Source: Candidatus Staskawiczbacteria bacterium RIFOXYC1_FULL_38_18
Lineage (GTDB): Bacteria; Patescibacteriota; Minisyncoccia; Minisyncoccales; Staskawiczbacteraceae
NCBI GenBank assembly: GCA_001822095.1
Contig: MHPP01000032.1
Location: 1 to 45,032, forward strand
DNA: 45,032 bases
Reading direction: 5' to 3'
In this document: positions 19,501-40,000 of the stretch, in pieces
Layout of the letters: the number at the start of each line of letters is the position of its first letter
How positions within the stretch are numbered: position 1 is the stretch's first letter
Program-made: the position numbers and the translations under genes
The notes under the pieces: generated by a model
What the model saw: the letters and a program-made list of their open reading frames with translations, nothing else
Database searches by the model: none
What the model was told of the DNA's origin: nothing

Positions 19501-20436
19501 CTATTTATTTAAAAATATGTCAATACGCTGCTTTGCTTTATGGGAACCACTTATCCAGATAATCCTTTTATCCCTCTGAAACCACGTCATTTGCCGTTTT
19601 GCAAAATGCTCAGATTCCTTTTGTATTTTTTCAATCATTTGCTCTTTTGATATTTTGTTTTGTAAATATTGTGCGACAAACCTGTATTCTAAGCCAAATT
19701 CCTCCAGCCTTTTCCACGATAAAGCTCTATGAAGTTTTTTGACTTCATTTATCATTGCGTTTTTTTTCAGTCTTTTTGCCAGGCGTTTATGGATATTCTT
19801 TTTTAACTCGCCGGGCGATTTTTTAATGCCGATTTGCAGGATAGAAAATTGGGATGTCAGACGTCCCGATTTTTGAACGGGTTTACCAGTCTTTAAAACA
19901 ATTTCAAGCGCCCTGACTAATCTGCGCGGATTTTTAGCATCAATATTTTTTGCCCTCTTTGGGTCAAGTTTTTTTAATTTTTTAAACATTCCCCCAACGC
20001 CCAATTTTTCCAATTTTTTTCTCAATTTCCAGTCCGGCTTAACTTCCGGAATTACAATTCCATCAACAACAGACTGAATATAAAATCCGGTCCCGCCAAC
20101 TATAATTGGCAATTTCCCGCGCTTTTGGATATTTTTAATTGCTTTTAACGCCAATTTTTGATATTGGGCTAAGGTAAACCTTCTTTTTGGATTGGCAACA
20201 TCCAAAAGCCAGTGGGAGATGCCTTGCATTTCTTTTTTTGTTATTTTACCGGAGCCGATATCCAGCCCCTTGTAAACCTGCCTTGAATCAGCCGAAATAA
20301 TTTCCGCTCCTTCTATGCCGAACTTATTTCGCCCTGAGCGTAGCCGAAGGGCTAATTTCACGGCCAAGTCGCTTTTTCCTGAAGCCGTCGGCCCCAAAAT
20401 TACAACTAGTTTGTTTTTTGTGCTGGCTGTTGACAT
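19501..20436 (-). CDS. miaA: tRNA dimethylallyltransferase
   Basis: VVILGPTASGKSDLAVKLA; IISADSRQVYKGLDIGSGK; PIIVGGTGFYIQSVVDG. Confidence 0.95.
   Translation of the reverse strand: MSTASTKNKLVVILGPTASGKSDLAVKLALRLRSGRNKFGIEGAEIISADSRQVYKGLDIGSGKITKKEMQGISHWLLDVANPKRRFTLAQYQKLALKAIKNIQKRGKLPIIVGGTGFYIQSVVDGIVIPEVKPDWKLRKKLEKLGVGGMFKKLKKLDPKRAKNIDAKNPRRLVRALEIVLKTGKPVQKSGRLTSQFSILQIGIKKSPGELKKNIHKRLAKRLKKNAMINEVKKLHRALSWKRLEEFGLEYRFVAQYLQNKISKEQMIEKIQKESEHFAKRQMTWFQRDKRIIWISGSHKAKQRIDIFLNK
20320..20355. repeat. Palindromic repeat inserted in frame in miaA
   Basis: TTCGCCCTGAGCGTAGCCGAAGGGCTAA; encodes LRLRSGRNKFGIE between LAVKLA and AEIISADSR. Confidence 0.65.
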
Positions 20437-20458
20437 GGTTATTTTTATGTGATAAGAT
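20430..20458 (+). promoter_or_regulatory. Sigma70-type promoter, plus strand, at the miaA start
   Basis: TTGACA - 17 nt - TAAGAT. Confidence 0.65.
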
Positions 20459-20464
20459 ATTTCT

Positions 20465-20674
20465 ATCGTGGACTTCGGTCCGTTTTACGTTCCTTTCACT
20501 CGGAGAGTCACATGACTCGCTTGACCCACTCCATTTCTTTCGTCTCGATCTCCTGACGCCGGGCACGGCCCACCACGATGAGCGACACTGGTCGCTCAAA
20601 ATGGTGATCGGTACCCCCAGGCCCCAACAACATTTTGCTAATACCAATAGCACCATGTCGCTGGGGCTCTTTTC
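20465..20674 (+). ncRNA. Stand-alone short transcription unit (structured RNA and/or 14-aa peptide MTRLTHSISFVSIS)
   Basis: Promoter 20430; GGAC-TTCG-GTCC hairpin; SD CGGAGAG + ATG at 20512 (stop 20556); AGCGAC/GTCGCT hairpin; terminator 20621-20674. Confidence 0.5.
20621..20674 (+). terminator. Long-stem terminator
   Basis: GCCCCAACAACATTTTGCTAATACCAATAGCACCATGTCGCTGGGGCTCTTTT. Confidence 0.7.
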
Positions 20675-27790: not shown

Positions 27791-30700
27791 TTAGGCTTCT
27801 TTTGGCACAAGAATCTCCTGCACGTCGTCGGCAACAATTTTTATTTCGCCTCCGCGATCGTCAACGCGCCCGGCCACAAAGACTATTTTATTCTCTTGCA
27901 ACGCAGTCGGGTTGCGTTCTAATAAATTTGGGAAAATCACAACCTCGGCTCTGCCCGACAAGTCTTCAAGTTTTATAAACAGCATTGGTTTGCCGTTTTT
28001 TGTAATAATTTTTTTAACAGAAGAAATTAATCCGCCAAACACAAGTTTTTTATCAACCAAGGTGTGGTCTACGAGTTTTATAAGAGGTGTTGTCCGCTTT
28101 TCAAAAAGTTTTTTGAAGCTGTTTAACGGGTGCGAGCTTACATAAAGGCCAAGCAATTCTTTTTCCCAGCCAAGCCTTTCAAATTCTGACGCGGGAGGGG
28201 CCGGCTCCAATTTTATTTCTTTGCTGGTTATTTTTATGCCCGAGGAAGCAAAAAGCCCCATTTGGTTTGAGTTGGTATTTTTATTGTTTTCGCGGGCAAT
28301 TTCAAGCATTTTTTCAAGGTTTTGCAAAAGCTGGTTTCTTTCGGCAAATTCGTCAAATGCTCCCGCCTTAATTAACGCCTCCATTGATTTTTTATTCAAA
28401 TCTTTTGACTTTACGCGGTTAATAAAATCGCTGATGGTTGAAAACCTCCCGTTGTTTTTTCTTTCTTCAACAATTGCGTCAATAATATTTACACCAACAT
28501 TTTTAATTGCCAGAAGCCCAAACCTGATTTGATTTTTTTCTGGCACAACAGTAAAGTTTTTTAAAGATTCGTTTATGTTTGGAGCCAGCACTTCAACGTC
28601 CATTTTTTTGCATTCATCAATTAAAAAAGAAATTCTTTCCACGTCGGCTTTTTCCGAAGTCAAAACAGATGCCATAAACTCAACAGGGTAGTGGGCTTTT
28701 AAATAGGCTGTCTGGTAGGCTATTGTGGCGTAAGCTGCCGAGTGCGACTTGTTGAATCCATACGACGCAAAAGGCAAAATCCATGTCCATAATTCCTGGG
28801 CAACCTTTTTCGAGGCGCCGTTTTTTATTGCTCCGTTAACAAATTTTTGCTCTTGCGCGTCAAGCAGGTCTTTAATTTTTTTACCAATGGCCTTTCTTAA
28901 AACATCCGCCTCGCCCAGGGTGAATCCGCAAACTTCCTGCGCAATTTTCATAAGTTGCTCCTGATAAATGCAAATTCCATAAGTATCTTTTAAAATTGGC
29001 TCAAGCGCCGGATGCAAATATTCAATTTTTTCCTTTCCGTGTTTTCTGGCAATATAATCTGGGATAAATTGCATTGGGCCGGGGCGATAGAGGGCAACCA
29101 TGGCCGTGATGTCCTCAAAAGTTGTAGATTTTAATTCTTTTAAATACCTTTTCATGCCGTCACTTTCAAGCTGGAACACAGATGTGGTCAGGGCGTCCTG
29201 CAAAAGTTTGTAGGTTTTTTGGTCGTCATAGGGAATTTTGTCCAAATCAATTGATAATTTATTGTGTAAAACATAAATTCTTGCCAGCGTGTCTTCTATT
29301 ATTGTAAGGTTTTTTAATCCCAAAAAATCCATTTTCAAAAGCCCAAGGTCTTCAATTCCGTGCATTTCATATTGGGTGATAATACCTTCTTCGCCTTCTT
29401 TGGTTGACCTTTGCAATGGCACAGAATCAGTTAAAGGATTTGCTGAAATCACAACTCCGCAGGCATGAGTTGAAGCGTGCCTGGCGACTCCTTCAAGTTT
29501 TTTCCCAAGGTCTATTAATTTTGTTGCCATTGGGTCGGTTTCATATTTTTCTTTAAATTCGTCAACTTTTTCCAGGGCTTCCGCCAGATCCATTCCCATG
29601 GGAATCATTTTTGCCATCTGGTCGCAGTAAGAATATGTATATTGCAAGGCCCTGCCAACATCTCGGATAACAGCGCGGGCAGCCATTGTTCCAAAGGTAA
29701 TAATTTGGGCTACATGGTCACGGCCATATTTTTCTCCGACATATTTTATAACTTCATCTCTTCTCCTGTCAGCAAAATCCAAATCAATATCGGGCATGGA
29801 AATCCTTTCAGGATTTAAAAATCTTTCAAAAAGCAAATTGTGTTTTAACGGGTCAACGTTTGTAATTCCGGTTAAGTAAGCAACAATAGAACCGCCGGCA
29901 GACCCGCGGCCCGGCCCCACAACAATCCTGTTTTGCTTTGCCCAGTTTACAAAATCTTGCACAATCAAAAAGTATCCGGCGAACCCGGTTTTTTCTATAA
30001 CAGAAATTTCATATTTTAGCCTGCCAATTATTTTTTGGTCAGGGTTTTTGCCGTATCTTTTTTCCAATCCCTGATAGCACAACTCTTCCAAGAATTGCGT
30101 ATCGGTTTTGCCTTCTGGCAAGGGAAACACGGGTAACTTTATTTTTCCAAGCTCAATGGTTAAATTGCACATGTCTGAAACCCTTTGCGTGTTTGCGAGG
30201 GCTTCGGGATATTCTTTGAACTCCTCCTCCATTTGCGCCGGACTTTTCATTGAGAAGTCGTCTTGTTTCATAGACAATCTTTCTGCGTCATTAATGTCGG
30301 AACCTGTGTTTATTAGCATTAAAACATCCTGAGCCTCGGCGTCTTCCTTTTTTAAATAATGAATATCGTTTGTGCAAACTAAAGGTATGCCGGTTTTTTT
30401 TGAAAGTTCAACCATTTTTTTGTTTGCGGTTGCCTGCTCAGGAATATTTTGGTGGCGCTGAAGTTCTAAATAAAAATTTCCCTTTCCAAAAAACTTTTCA
30501 TATTTTAGGGCGGTTGCCTCGGCTTCCTCATCTTTGTTTGAAATTAAGAGGCGCGGGATCTTTCCTTGTATGCAGGCGCTCATGCCGATTAATCCCTCCG
30601 CGTATTTTTCCAAGAGCTCTTCGTCAATTCTTGGTTTATAATAAAATCCGTCAAGCTGAGCTATTGAAACAAGTTTTACCAAATTTTTATAACCCTGCTC

Positions 30701-30982
30701 GTTTTTGGCAAGCAAAATTAAGTGGTTTCTTTTCTGGTCAACATTGGGCCGTTTGTCTGTGTGTTTTTCAAAAGCAACATAAACCTCGCATCCTATAATG
30801 GGCTTTATTTTTTTTGCCAGAGATTTTTTGTAAAACTCAATTGCTCCGTACATTACACCATGGTCAGTCAAAGCAACAGAATCCATTCCTAATTCTTTTA
30901 CGTAATCCAAAAGCTCGTCTATTTTAGGCAGGCCATCTAAAAGGGAATAGTGCGAGTGAACGTGTAAATGCGTAAATTTCAT
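27791..30982 (-). CDS. dnaE: DNA polymerase III subunit alpha
   Basis: PHP domain FTHLHVHSHYSLLDG; RIVVGPGRGSAGGSIVAYLTGITNVDPL; MPDIDLDFADRRRDEVIKYV. Confidence 0.97.
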   Translation of the reverse strand: MKFTHLHVHSHYSLLDGLPKIDELLDYVKELGMDSVALTDHGVMYGAIEFYKKSLAKKIKPIIGCEVYVAFEKHTDKRPNVDQKRNHLILLAKNEQGYKNLVKLVSIAQLDGFYYKPRIDEELLEKYAEGLIGMSACIQGKIPRLLISNKDEEAEATALKYEKFFGKGNFYLELQRHQNIPEQATANKKMVELSKKTGIPLVCTNDIHYLKKEDAEAQDVLMLINTGSDINDAERLSMKQDDFSMKSPAQMEEEFKEYPEALANTQRVSDMCNLTIELGKIKLPVFPLPEGKTDTQFLEELCYQGLEKRYGKNPDQKIIGRLKYEISVIEKTGFAGYFLIVQDFVNWAKQNRIVVGPGRGSAGGSIVAYLTGITNVDPLKHNLLFERFLNPERISMPDIDLDFADRRRDEVIKYVGEKYGRDHVAQIITFGTMAARAVIRDVGRALQYTYSYCDQMAKMIPMGMDLAEALEKVDEFKEKYETDPMATKLIDLGKKLEGVARHASTHACGVVISANPLTDSVPLQRSTKEGEEGIITQYEMHGIEDLGLLKMDFLGLKNLTIIEDTLARIYVLHNKLSIDLDKIPYDDQKTYKLLQDALTTSVFQLESDGMKRYLKELKSTTFEDITAMVALYRPGPMQFIPDYIARKHGKEKIEYLHPALEPILKDTYGICIYQEQLMKIAQEVCGFTLGEADVLRKAIGKKIKDLLDAQEQKFVNGAIKNGASKKVAQELWTWILPFASYGFNKSHSAAYATIAYQTAYLKAHYPVEFMASVLTSEKADVERISFLIDECKKMDVEVLAPNINESLKNFTVVPEKNQIRFGLLAIKNVGVNIIDAIVEERKNNGRFSTISDFINRVKSKDLNKKSMEALIKAGAFDEFAERNQLLQNLEKMLEIARENNKNTNSNQMGLFASSGIKITSKEIKLEPAPPASEFERLGWEKELLGLYVSSHPLNSFKKLFEKRTTPLIKLVDHTLVDKKLVFGGLISSVKKIITKNGKPMLFIKLEDLSGRAEVVIFPNLLERNPTALQENKIVFVAGRVDDRGGEIKIVADDVQEILVPKEA

Positions 30983-31028
30983 AATTCGTATGCCTTATTT
31001 TACTTTTTATATTATATTTATTCAACTA

Positions 31029-31057
31029 TTGACTCAAGCTCTTATATATGCTATAAT
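31029..31057 (+). promoter_or_regulatory. Sigma70-type promoter of ncRNA candidate (TGC extended -10)
   Basis: TTGACT - 17 nt - TATAAT. Confidence 0.8.
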
Positions 31058-31063
31058 TAATAA

Positions 31064-31318
31064 TATATAGCACATTGTCGCATCCCCCTCGTCTAACGAA
31101 CGAGGAGAGTCACGGGATCGACCGTCAAGCCGGTGGAGCGTATGTAGCGCGTTGCTGCTACTCCGCAGGGGAAGTTCTGCGTGGCTTGTCCAGCCTTTCT
31201 AATAAAGAAGGGTGTTAAAAAGGACTGGACAACACGAAGTCGCTCCCGGCGCAAATATAGCCGCGTAGAGGTTGCAAACACTTCAAAGTGAAATGAGTTG
31301 CAATCTCCGCGGCTTTTT
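31064..31318 (+). ncRNA. Structured non-coding RNA candidate (~255 nt), class unknown
   Basis: Own promoter, no convincing plus-strand ORF, successive hairpins CCTCGT/ACGAGG, GGAG..GTAGC/GCTGC..CTCC, CGCAG/CTGCG, GTCCAGCCTTT/AAAGG-A-CTGGAC, and terminator. Confidence 0.65.
31259..31318 (+). terminator. Terminator of ncRNA candidate
   Basis: AGCCGCGtAGAgGTTGCAA...TTGCAATCTcCGCGGCTTTTT. Confidence 0.8.
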
Positions 31319-31416
31319 ATCTAGAAATTTTTCTTGTGCATGCGCTGGACAAATTGCGAAAACTTTGTAATATAAGAGCGTTGCCCCTTTCCATTCTGGC
31401 ACAAAGGATTATTGCG

Positions 31417-31521
31417 ATGAAAAGACGCAAGCGCAGGAAAATAGTTTATTCGCCATCTCTGTGGTTTTTTGTCATTGTTGCGTTTGCTCTCGCATATTGC
31501 GTTTCGTCCATTATTCCTTAG
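31417..31521 (+). CDS. 34-aa cationic single-TM small protein
   Basis: SD AAAGGA; MKRRKRRKIVYSPSLWFFVIVAFALAYCVSSIIP*; TAATAT -10 upstream and terminator downstream. Confidence 0.55.
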   Translation: MKRRKRRKIVYSPSLWFFVIVAFALAYCVSSIIP

Positions 31522-31541
31522 CGGGAAAAAATTGCCCTGTG

Positions 31542-31568
31542 CGGAGAACATTGTTTCTCCGTTTTTTT
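31542..31568 (+). terminator. Terminator after 34-aa ORF
   Basis: CGGAGAA-CATTGT-TTCTCCGTTTTTTT. Confidence 0.75.
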
Positions 31569-31586
31569 GTGTGTTAAAATATAATA

Positions 31587-32261
31587 ATGAACTATCCGAA
31601 TTTTGACGAGGAAAAAAAGTTGTGGAAAAAGGGGTATAATTTTGTTGCAGGACTGGATGAAGCCGGAAGGGGTCCTTTGGCCGGACCGGTGGTGGCAGGA
31701 GCAGTTATTATAAATCCGAAGCACGGAATTCTAATTTCGGATTTAAAAATTCGGGATTCAAAACAAATGTCGGCTAATCAGCGCGAGGATGTTTATGAAA
31801 AAATAACCGTGTGTAAAGATATAACGTGGGGAGTGGGGATTGTTTCGGAAAAAGTTATAGATAAAATAAATATTTTGGAAGCAACAAAACTGGCAATGCA
31901 AAAAGCCATAAATAATTTACTTTCGCGCAACCCTCGTCATAAATTACGCTATCGCGCGAAAAGTGATGATGGTTTATTTTTGTTGATTGACGGGAATATG
32001 AATTTTGGATGGGGCTATAAATATAAATCTATAATAAAGGGCGACCAGAAGGTTTTTTCAATTTCCGCAGCTTCTATTATAGCAAAGGTAACTCGGGATC
32101 GCATAATGCGAAAATATCACAAAAAATATCCAAATTATGGTTTTGACAAACACAAGGGATATGGCACCAAGTCGCACTTTGCCAGTATCAAAAAATATGG
32201 GCCGTGCAAGATCCATCGGAAGACATTCCGGCCCGCAGGTCTGGAGTTATCCACAGCTTGA
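31587..32261 (+). CDS. rnhB: Ribonuclease HII
   Basis: VAGLDEAGRGPLAGPVVAGAVI; RDSKQMSANQRE. Confidence 0.95.
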   Translation: MNYPNFDEEKKLWKKGYNFVAGLDEAGRGPLAGPVVAGAVIINPKHGILISDLKIRDSKQMSANQREDVYEKITVCKDITWGVGIVSEKVIDKINILEATKLAMQKAINNLLSRNPRHKLRYRAKSDDGLFLLIDGNMNFGWGYKYKSIIKGDQKVFSISAASIIAKVTRDRIMRKYHKKYPNYGFDKHKGYGTKSHFASIKKYGPCKIHRKTFRPAGLELSTA

Positions 32262-37090: not shown

Positions 37091-40000
37091 ATGCAGACAA
37101 AAACAATAAAAATAATAAGCTTGCCAATTTTGGCTTTTGCTATTTTTTTATTTCTGACTGCTTTTGGAGCCGTAGAAGCAATTAATTCAAAAATTCCCTG
37201 CACCTGTCCTAGCGGCGGCACAGTATGCGCAAGCGCTTTTTGTCCTACCGATACAATGTGTCAGGAAGGATATTGTAATGACGGCTCAACTAATTTGATT
37301 TGTCCGCTTAATTGTCCCCTATATAATTTTAATGAATGCTCTGCGCCATGTTACAGAACTGAAATTGGTCCATGTCAATATACGGCCGTGCCGGGCATCC
37401 CCTTTATGTGCGTGCCAGATATATCCTATCCGGATCCAAGTTGTTCAATGGGTTTTGATTGTACAGGAAGTGGGACAGGCGGTGGCGGTGGCGGTGGGTT
37501 AATTGGCACATGCGCGACTTATGGATTGAGCGCAGGAAATGCTTGTATTAGTGAAGATGTTGGAGGCGGGCAGGGAAGTTCTTGTTCGTCTAATTCCGAT
37601 TGCCAGCCAGCAACTGGCCAAAAATATTGCGATTTAAGCACGGGCCAGTGCTCCACAGACGGAAATGGACTAATTTGCTCTCTTGATGTAGAATGTGGTC
37701 TTGGCACTTCGGTAAGCAGGTGTAATATTGGCGGAACATGTTCTGTCTCCGGGGATGGCGATGCATGCTCAACCAGCGCCGACTGCGGGGCATTAACGCC
37801 AAAATGCGATGAATCGGGGAAATGTGTGTTAACTAATTCTGGCGGTATATCCTGCGCAACCGATGCAGAATGCGCATTTAGATGCGCAAGCAGTGGTTTG
37901 GGAGTCAACAACCAATGCGTGCAGGGAGGCGATGGCGCGCCTTGTTATAACTCCATGTATCATACGCCGGACGATAATTTGTGCAAGCCTTATGGATGCG
38001 ATGACGCAAATCAACGATGTGTGCAGGGCGGAACCGGTAATTCCTGCGGAGGCCCTAATGATTATGTTACGTGCGAGCCCGATTGCACAATCAGCGGTAA
38101 TTGCGCTTTATATAGGTGCAATACGCAAAACCAGCGATGCGAAACGGGGCTGGCGGGAGGAATTATCTGCAATCAGAACGACCCTTTGGCTTGCAAATAC
38201 AGGTGCGCCACAAATTTTACTTGTTCTTCGGGAGGATTTGGGGCGGTGTGCGACCCATTTGGCAATCCAGACGCCTGTAAATTTGGTTGCGACCCAAATC
38301 CAAGCAGCCCAAGTTATATGAGATGCATTCAAGGACTTTACACTGAATTCCCTTGTAATATTTTTCAAACAGGAGATGCCTGCGCGTATAAATGTTCGGG
38401 AGAATCATGTGCATTGCAGGGGTGGAATAAGTATTATTACTCTCCATACACCACCACGCCCATTCCAAGCGACCCAAGAAGTTGTACCGATGATACAAAT
38501 TGCGCATATGGCTGTAATGCTTCTTTGCAATGCGTTCAGGGAATAGGAACAGGAGAATGGTGTACGCCCATACCTGGGAATCCTAATTCAACAGTTCCGT
38601 GTGATTACGGATGTGTTGGAAATAGATGTGTTCTAGGAAGTGGAGGTCCATTGTGCGGGCCTTCAAATGACGGAGCCGATTGTATAACAAGATGCGGAGC
38701 AACAAGCAATCCCTTAAACCCCTTAAAACCTTATCCTGATGATTATTTTGCATATTCTTGCATGCAAGGCGTTTCTACTGATTCTTTACCCTGTACGGTC
38801 GATTCGCAGTGCGGATATAGTTGTAACGAATATGACCAATGCGTTCCGTTTGGCGGAGGCGCTAGTTGTGACCCTTATAATTCGTTTTCATGCGGTTATC
38901 CGGAATGTGATCCGACCACAACCCCCTTTGACCCGGACGGGTGCGGAGGATGTGGAAATTTTTGCGGGCCAAATGGATATTGGTTTGCTTGCCCCTCAGT
39001 AAATCATTTAGTGGATCCACGCGATTCGGCCGGGCAATGTTTGTGCTATCCTAATCAAAACCCCGCCTTGGGATTTACCTGCGGGTCAAACGATTTTTTT
39101 GAACCGCACGTTAACACCCCGCCATACGCCCAACCGGTAACGTGCAGCCAATGCGCGGTGCAACAGCCCCCATATATAACAGGTCTTTCGCTTGCTCAAA
39201 ATCAATGTACCGGAATAGTGGGGCAGTCAGCGGTCAACCTTCAATGGGTTTATAACAGCCCCGACGATATTGATGAATTAAAATATGAGCTTCAAATAGC
39301 AAGAGACGAAGACACAAATTTTGATGACCCTGTTTTTTACAAAACAGTATTGCATTCCGCGCTAAACGGATCTACGAATTTTTCTCCGACTATTCCAATA
39401 ATATTTGGCGCAGACGTTCCCGGTTGCAATGAAAACATAGGGCAAACTTGTTATTTGAGTTTCGGCAAAAATTATCGTTGGGGAGTTAAAGTAACAGACG
39501 AAAACAATAAGGCTTCTGTGTGGCATTATTATAAGCCCGGCGCCTGTAGCGGACCGAGTTTGGATTTACTATACCTTGAGGGAAATGAAACATGGGTGGA
39601 GGGCACAACACACCAAATCGCGTGGACATCAGAAAATTTGGGTTCATCTACGGTTAATGTCTATTTTGGATCCACCTATTTTGGAACCACCTTTATTGGC
39701 TCGGCTCCGGCGTCTCAGAATTTTTATAATTGGGCAATACCCGTTCCTTCATGGTTGGTCGATCCTAGACATATTAGTATAATAACAACTACAAGTTTGG
39801 GACAAACGCTATCGGATGAAAGTCTTGGCCTTGTTTCAATTTCGCCTTGCGTTCCAAGTTGGACATGCAACGGACTTAGTTGTAGTGATCCAAACTCGTG
39901 GGGCGAATGTTCTGCTTCCGGAACTCAAACAAGAAGCGTAATAGATACAAACAATTGCGGAACAACAACCGGAAAACCAGCCGAATCTCAAACCTGCACA

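Follow-up and report, generated by a model that had tools for sequence, protein, structure and literature searches.

We analyzed a 45,032-nt stretch of DNA (the window), which is contig C32 of the 687-kb draft genome (G000) of Candidatus Staskawiczbacteria bacterium RIFOXYC1_FULL_38_18. Our subject is a candidate RNA, RNA1, predicted in the 604-nt gap between the divergent genes dnaE and rnhB. The features of this region are as follows.

27791..30982, minus strand: dnaE (DNA polymerase III alpha), the divergent left neighbor, assigned by Pfam
31029..31057, plus strand: sigma70-type promoter of RNA1, 11 of 12 consensus matches
31064..31319, plus strand: predicted RNA1 transcript, about 255 nt, structured, without a convincing open reading frame
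31077..31122, plus strand: 5' hairpin of RNA1, bulged by 8 nt on the 3' side (AGAGUCAC, 31106-31113); main stems 0.92-0.98 in pairing probability
31129..31250, plus strand: multibranch core of RNA1; closing stems 0.86-0.97
31259..31318, plus strand: intrinsic terminator of RNA1, a long GC-rich hairpin and a T run; pairing probability about 0.97
31417..31521, plus strand: putative 34-codon open reading frame (ORF), MKRRKRRKIVYSPSLWFFVIVAFALAYCVSSIIP, read from the sequence, with the Shine-Dalgarno AAAGGA at 31404
31541..31570, plus strand: intrinsic terminator 3' of the 34-codon ORF
31587..32261, plus strand: rnhB (ribonuclease HII), the right neighbor, assigned by Pfam (RNase_HII)

The promoter of RNA1 consists of TTGACT (31029-31034), a 17-nt spacer and TATAAT (31052-31057), with the TG of an extended -10, and the predicted start of transcription is at approximately 31064. 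No plausible ORF was found inside RNA1. The longest frame, 47 codons from a TTG at 31075, lacks a Shine-Dalgarno sequence, as do the other open frames within the transcript. The G+C content is 51% in RNA1, 40% over the window as a whole and 21% in the promoter stretch. The RNA1 sequence is present in a single copy in the genome.

The minimum free energy of 31063-31325 was -98.5 kcal/mol, compared to -77.3 ± 4.5 kcal/mol for shuffled sequences (z = -4.66; none of 200 shuffles was as good). In the predicted fold, the 5' hairpin is followed by a core closed by the stems GCCGG/CCGGC and GAGCG/CGCUC, in which 31129-31140 pairs with 31241-31250. The core contains three hairpins, two of them (31164-31181 and 31186-31232) with pairing probabilities of 0.86-0.97 and one (31144-31161) that is weaker, at 0.58. 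The terminator hairpin (31259-31314) has a folding energy of -27.3 kcal/mol alone and runs into the T run at 31314-31318. The full transcript favors the terminator state by approximately 5.5 kcal/mol, and termination would therefore be the default for RNA1. An earlier sequence-only reading of this locus had described a structured RNA of about 255 nt with a strong promoter, no good plus-strand ORF and at least four clear hairpins ending in a long intrinsic terminator. Our results agree with this description on each point: the promoter matches the consensus at 11 of 12 positions, the folding is in excess of that of shuffles, four to five stable hairpins are predicted, the terminator is long, and no frame exceeds the 47 codons noted above.

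To place these values in context, we scanned the window coarsely, using 358 stretches of 255 nt on both strands and a fixed spread of 4.5 kcal/mol. Five of the 358 stretches had a lower z than RNA1, and one of the five was the antisense strand of RNA1 itself. RNA1 is thus among the strongest-folding stretches of the window and is not unique. Because other stretches score lower, folding alone is no proof of an RNA, and because the antisense strand is among them, the strand of RNA1 is set by the promoter and the T run and not by folding.

We searched for homologues of RNA1 in several ways. No homologue was found by blastn among 97 relatives, 11 of them in the same genus; the matches were short, and most fell on the promoter. 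As a control, we ran this search with the RNase P RNA of the genome, which gave a match in each of the 11 congeners (E 1e-5 to 1e-82) and in every one of the 11 additional family members sampled. A one-sequence covariance model of 31077-31250 recovered only RNA1 itself, whether run over 247 genomes of the order or over 383 drawn from the class. There was also no homologue in phages, plasmids or viral contigs; exact RNA1 words in viral contigs were chance matches only, and the best match of the covariance model there had an E of 4.3. No conserved aptamer was found upstream of related genes in the genomes searched. RNA1 is a single-copy orphan among these genomes, and its fold is predicted from a single sequence.

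The genes dnaE and rnhB are divergent neighbors across many Patescibacteria, and the content between them varies. The gap is 45-190 nt in most congeners. Unrelated small ORFs with ribosome sites lie in the gap in G007 (L033), G002 (L035), L053 and L061, and the gap of L054 holds a tRNA. At related loci, several of these slot genes are preceded by a promoter whose distance from dnaE is similar (promoter start to dnaE start: 50 nt in L033, 67 nt in L061 and 47 nt in the window). RNA1 is one more occupant of this variable slot, and not a case of conserved linkage to rnhB. The sequence-only reading had placed the RNA upstream of rnhB; RNA1 does lie 5' of rnhB, but the 34-codon ORF, which that reading does not mention, intervenes and the linkage is not conserved. 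The peptide encoded by this ORF has a basic N-terminus and one hydrophobic segment, and no Pfam match was found for 31417-31521. The ORF's own promoter is weak, and the ORF could be a downstream cistron if the RNA1 terminator is read through.

In ten Moranbacteria-like loci (L076, L084, L086, L087, L096, L103, L109, L114, L128 and L131), a conserved element, CUUGCAAAACCCAnnGAGCAAUCnGGGCUAUGAAGG, lies in this gap next to dnaE. One example is:

L103:5644-5698, minus strand: dnaE-leader element

In the two-helix structure of this element, 91% of the cells are paired and five of the ten pairs are changed on both sides. The covariation score over the ten loci was 0.36; shuffles scored 0.17, and slid versions did not exceed 0.18. 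A model built from these loci found three further ones (L079:2140-2194, L080:3961-4017 and L118:2421-2477, minus strand), all before dnaE and on the dnaE strand, with E of 8e-5 or better; there were no other matches below E 0.3 in 81 sources. In at least eight of the ten loci a conserved AUG opens a short frame, mostly 6-8 codons long, and in most loci there is an apparent intrinsic terminator between the element and dnaE. No Rfam match was found in the five loci scanned. We take the element for a candidate leader or attenuator RNA of dnaE, the gene of a replicative DNA polymerase, apparently undescribed so far; as such it may merit more attention than RNA1.

Elsewhere in the window there is a possible second RNA unit, RNA2, picked up in the scan for strong folding:

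20430..20674, plus strand: RNA2, between miaB and miaA and antisense to both; folding z -3.95

Its promoter, TTGACA-N17-TAAGAT, has 10 of 12 consensus matches and a TG, and its terminal GC hairpin (20619-20670) is followed by CTTTTC. The two units have the ten-letter word GGAGAGTCAC in common, at 31104-31113 in RNA1 and 20502-20511 in RNA2; if the first letter of the -35 box is position 1, the word begins at positions 76 and 73, respectively. TTGAC followed by GGAGAGTCAC at such spacing occurs exactly twice in the genome, both times in the window; the 246 other genomes of the order together contain two further cases. A common ten-letter word within a 5-nt offset was seen in none of 400 shuffle pairs, and at any offset in eight of 400; GGAGAGTCAC itself was chosen after it had been sighted. 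The word lies in a bulge in one RNA and in a hairpin arm in the other. No convincing homologue of RNA2 was found, making it an orphan too; a match in G033 falls within the coding sequence of an unrelated gene and is probably due to chance. We consider it doubtful that RNA1 and RNA2 (approximately 20464-20674) form a lineage-specific small RNA (sRNA) family with a promoter-proximal GGAGAGUCAC contact motif and a common target. The shared word is a lead.

Between 25260 and 25560, before a gene for a DUF84-family NTPase, the window also contains nested inverted repeats, AAACCCCGTTAGAAGTTTG ... CAAACTTCTAACGGGGT, around a near-perfect hairpin, ATGGCGACGCGCGTACGCGTGTCGCCAT. The arrangement resembles that of a small mobile element or repeat.

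The reading of RNA1 that we favor, tentatively, is that of a stand-alone, lineage-specific sRNA gene. RNA1 has its own promoter, a folded body, no ORF and a terminator that by default would end transcription, and this reading fits directly. We infer that the sigma70 promoter would start a transcript at approximately 31064, that the transcript would fold into the 5' hairpin, the three-hairpin multibranch core and the terminator, and that it would stop near 31319. The product would most likely be an abundant regulator that acts in trans, pairing with mRNAs via a few exposed stretches; putative contact sites are the bulge AGAGUCAC (31106-31113) and the loop AAGAAGGG (31205-31212). Such an RNA would probably be a young lineage-specific regulator rather than a universal cellular RNA. 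Several observations count against a stand-alone sRNA: no homologue was found in the genomes searched, several stretches of the window fold as strongly, and a small ORF with a Shine-Dalgarno sequence and a weak promoter lies directly 3', an arrangement that also fits a leader RNA. In addition, among possible targets nearby, no complementarity of RNA1 to the dnaE, rnhB or 34-codon ORF mRNA was significant relative to shuffles.

Separately, nucleotides 31176-31184 of RNA1 are complementary over nine nt to the region around the start codon of a 1317-codon ORF at 37091 (plus strand). This contact was better than all of 30 shuffles, but the ORF was one of 15 genes tested, and after that many tests the result is weak.

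The small ORF downstream is central to the main rival, which we regard as rather unlikely: that RNA1 is an attenuated 5' leader whose promoter at 31029 drives the 34-codon membrane-peptide ORF. A ligand, a protein or a translation event would then choose between the terminator and an antiterminator formed by 31175-31186 and the 5' arm of the terminator (31259-31270). Promoters in the same slot appear to drive small ORFs in congeners, which is consistent with a leader. The duplex 31175-31186/31259-31270 is unusual in itself: when the upstream sequence was shuffled 1000 times, only 13 of the shuffles equalled it. The energetics depend on how much of the terminator has been made. Before its 3' arm is present, forming the 12-pair alternative helix gains about 5 kcal/mol over the core plus the free arm, but once that arm is made the helix is 5.5 kcal/mol worse. 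The net gain from refolding is, however, ordinary: with the core shuffled, 104 of 400 sequences did as well, and with the tail shuffled, 143 of 400. RNA1 matched no riboswitch or T-box family (Rfam, E ≤ 10), no homologue was found in which the alternative pairing could be conserved, and the 34-codon ORF is itself putative. The same ORF enters a further reading, which we consider very unlikely, in which RNA1 belongs to a type I toxin-antitoxin system with the 34-residue membrane peptide as the toxin. The small basic-hydrophobic peptide encoded directly downstream fits such a system, as does a perfect 9-nt complementarity between 31186-31194 and 31344-31352. However, these nine nucleotides lie within a strong helix, 18 of 30 shuffled targets were as good, and RNA1 is on the ORF's own strand and not antisense to it.

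The lack of homologues bears on the two other readings. One is horizontally acquired or decaying DNA that retains promoter-like and hairpin sequences by chance and has no function. It fits the finding of no homologue in any congener; the turnover of the slot between species and the comparable folding elsewhere in the window point the same way. We nevertheless think this improbable, as RNA1 has an intact promoter, folded body and terminator in the correct order, and the G+C content is well above that of the surroundings. That RNA1 is a housekeeping RNA that has diverged very far, with SRP RNA as the most plausible identity, we find barely credible. What speaks for it is that no SRP RNA was detected in this genome with RF00169, or in any of the genus's 12 genomes (this one and the 11 congeners) with RF01854; the SRP RNA of the genus is either missing or too divergent for the models. 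However, RNA1 had no SRP-like match, including to the conserved S domain (helix 8), with either model even at E ≤ 10, and a housekeeping RNA would be expected in the congeners, as RNase P RNA is (11 of 11), and RNA1 is absent from them.

On the sequence evidence, then, the feature is real, and RNA1 is one orphan candidate that is most likely an orphan sRNA. We found no description of sRNAs of Patescibacteria (CPR) in the open literature, and small RNAs of this group seem almost undescribed. If RNA1 is a true sRNA, its presence in a 0.69-Mb genome and its absence from the sampled congeners would mean that even very reduced genomes turn over regulatory RNAs quickly.

We compared RNA1 to known classes of structured RNA. 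By eye, the sequence-only reading had left it unclassified, as neither tmRNA, RNase P, SRP nor 6S RNA, and that judgment stands: with Rfam 15 there was no match anywhere in the window at curated thresholds, and over 30950-31600 the matches at E ≤ 10 were meaningless, no family fitting RNA1. The models for RNase P RNA (RF00010) and tmRNA (RF00023) did not match RNA1 and found the true copies elsewhere in the genome (G000:C29:6009-6376, 103.4 bits, and G000:C4:4773-5123, 100.1 bits, respectively). The Rfam models therefore work here, and RNA1 is neither of these RNAs. RNA1 is similar to tmRNA in length class; tmRNA is marked by tRNA-like ends and a tag ORF, and ARAGORN found none in the window. 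Its GAGGAGAGTCACGGG resembles the conserved GAGGAAAGTCC of RNase P RNA superficially only, as had been suspected. The 6S RNA model (RF00013) also gave no match; 6S RNA is a long helix with a central open bubble, whereas the predicted fold of RNA1 is multibranched. Type III toxin-antitoxin RNAs are made of tandem repeats and precede the gene for an endoribonuclease toxin. RNA1 does not fit this class, as it has no tandem repeats, and the next ORF has 34 codons and no Pfam match.

Two kinds of regulatory RNA are closer. Attenuators and riboswitches, like RNA1, have a structured stretch, then an intrinsic terminator, then in this case a small ORF, and an alternative helix that includes the 5' arm of the terminator can be drawn in RNA1 too. 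Unlike them, RNA1 has no Rfam riboswitch, T-box or leader match, and the refolding gain of its potential switch, though not the duplex itself, is no better than in shuffled controls. Species-specific (orphan) intergenic sRNAs of bacteria have a sigma70-type promoter, a length of about 50-300 nt, stem-loops and an intrinsic terminator, and are poorly conserved. Typical sRNAs are smaller and less elaborately folded than RNA1, with its 255 nt and predicted multibranch core. At the level of sequence, RNA1 has the promoter and terminator of its own and the lack of an ORF that define a stand-alone sRNA, and it is like the orphan intergenic sRNAs in its promoter, stable stem-loops, intrinsic terminator, intergenic site and poor conservation.
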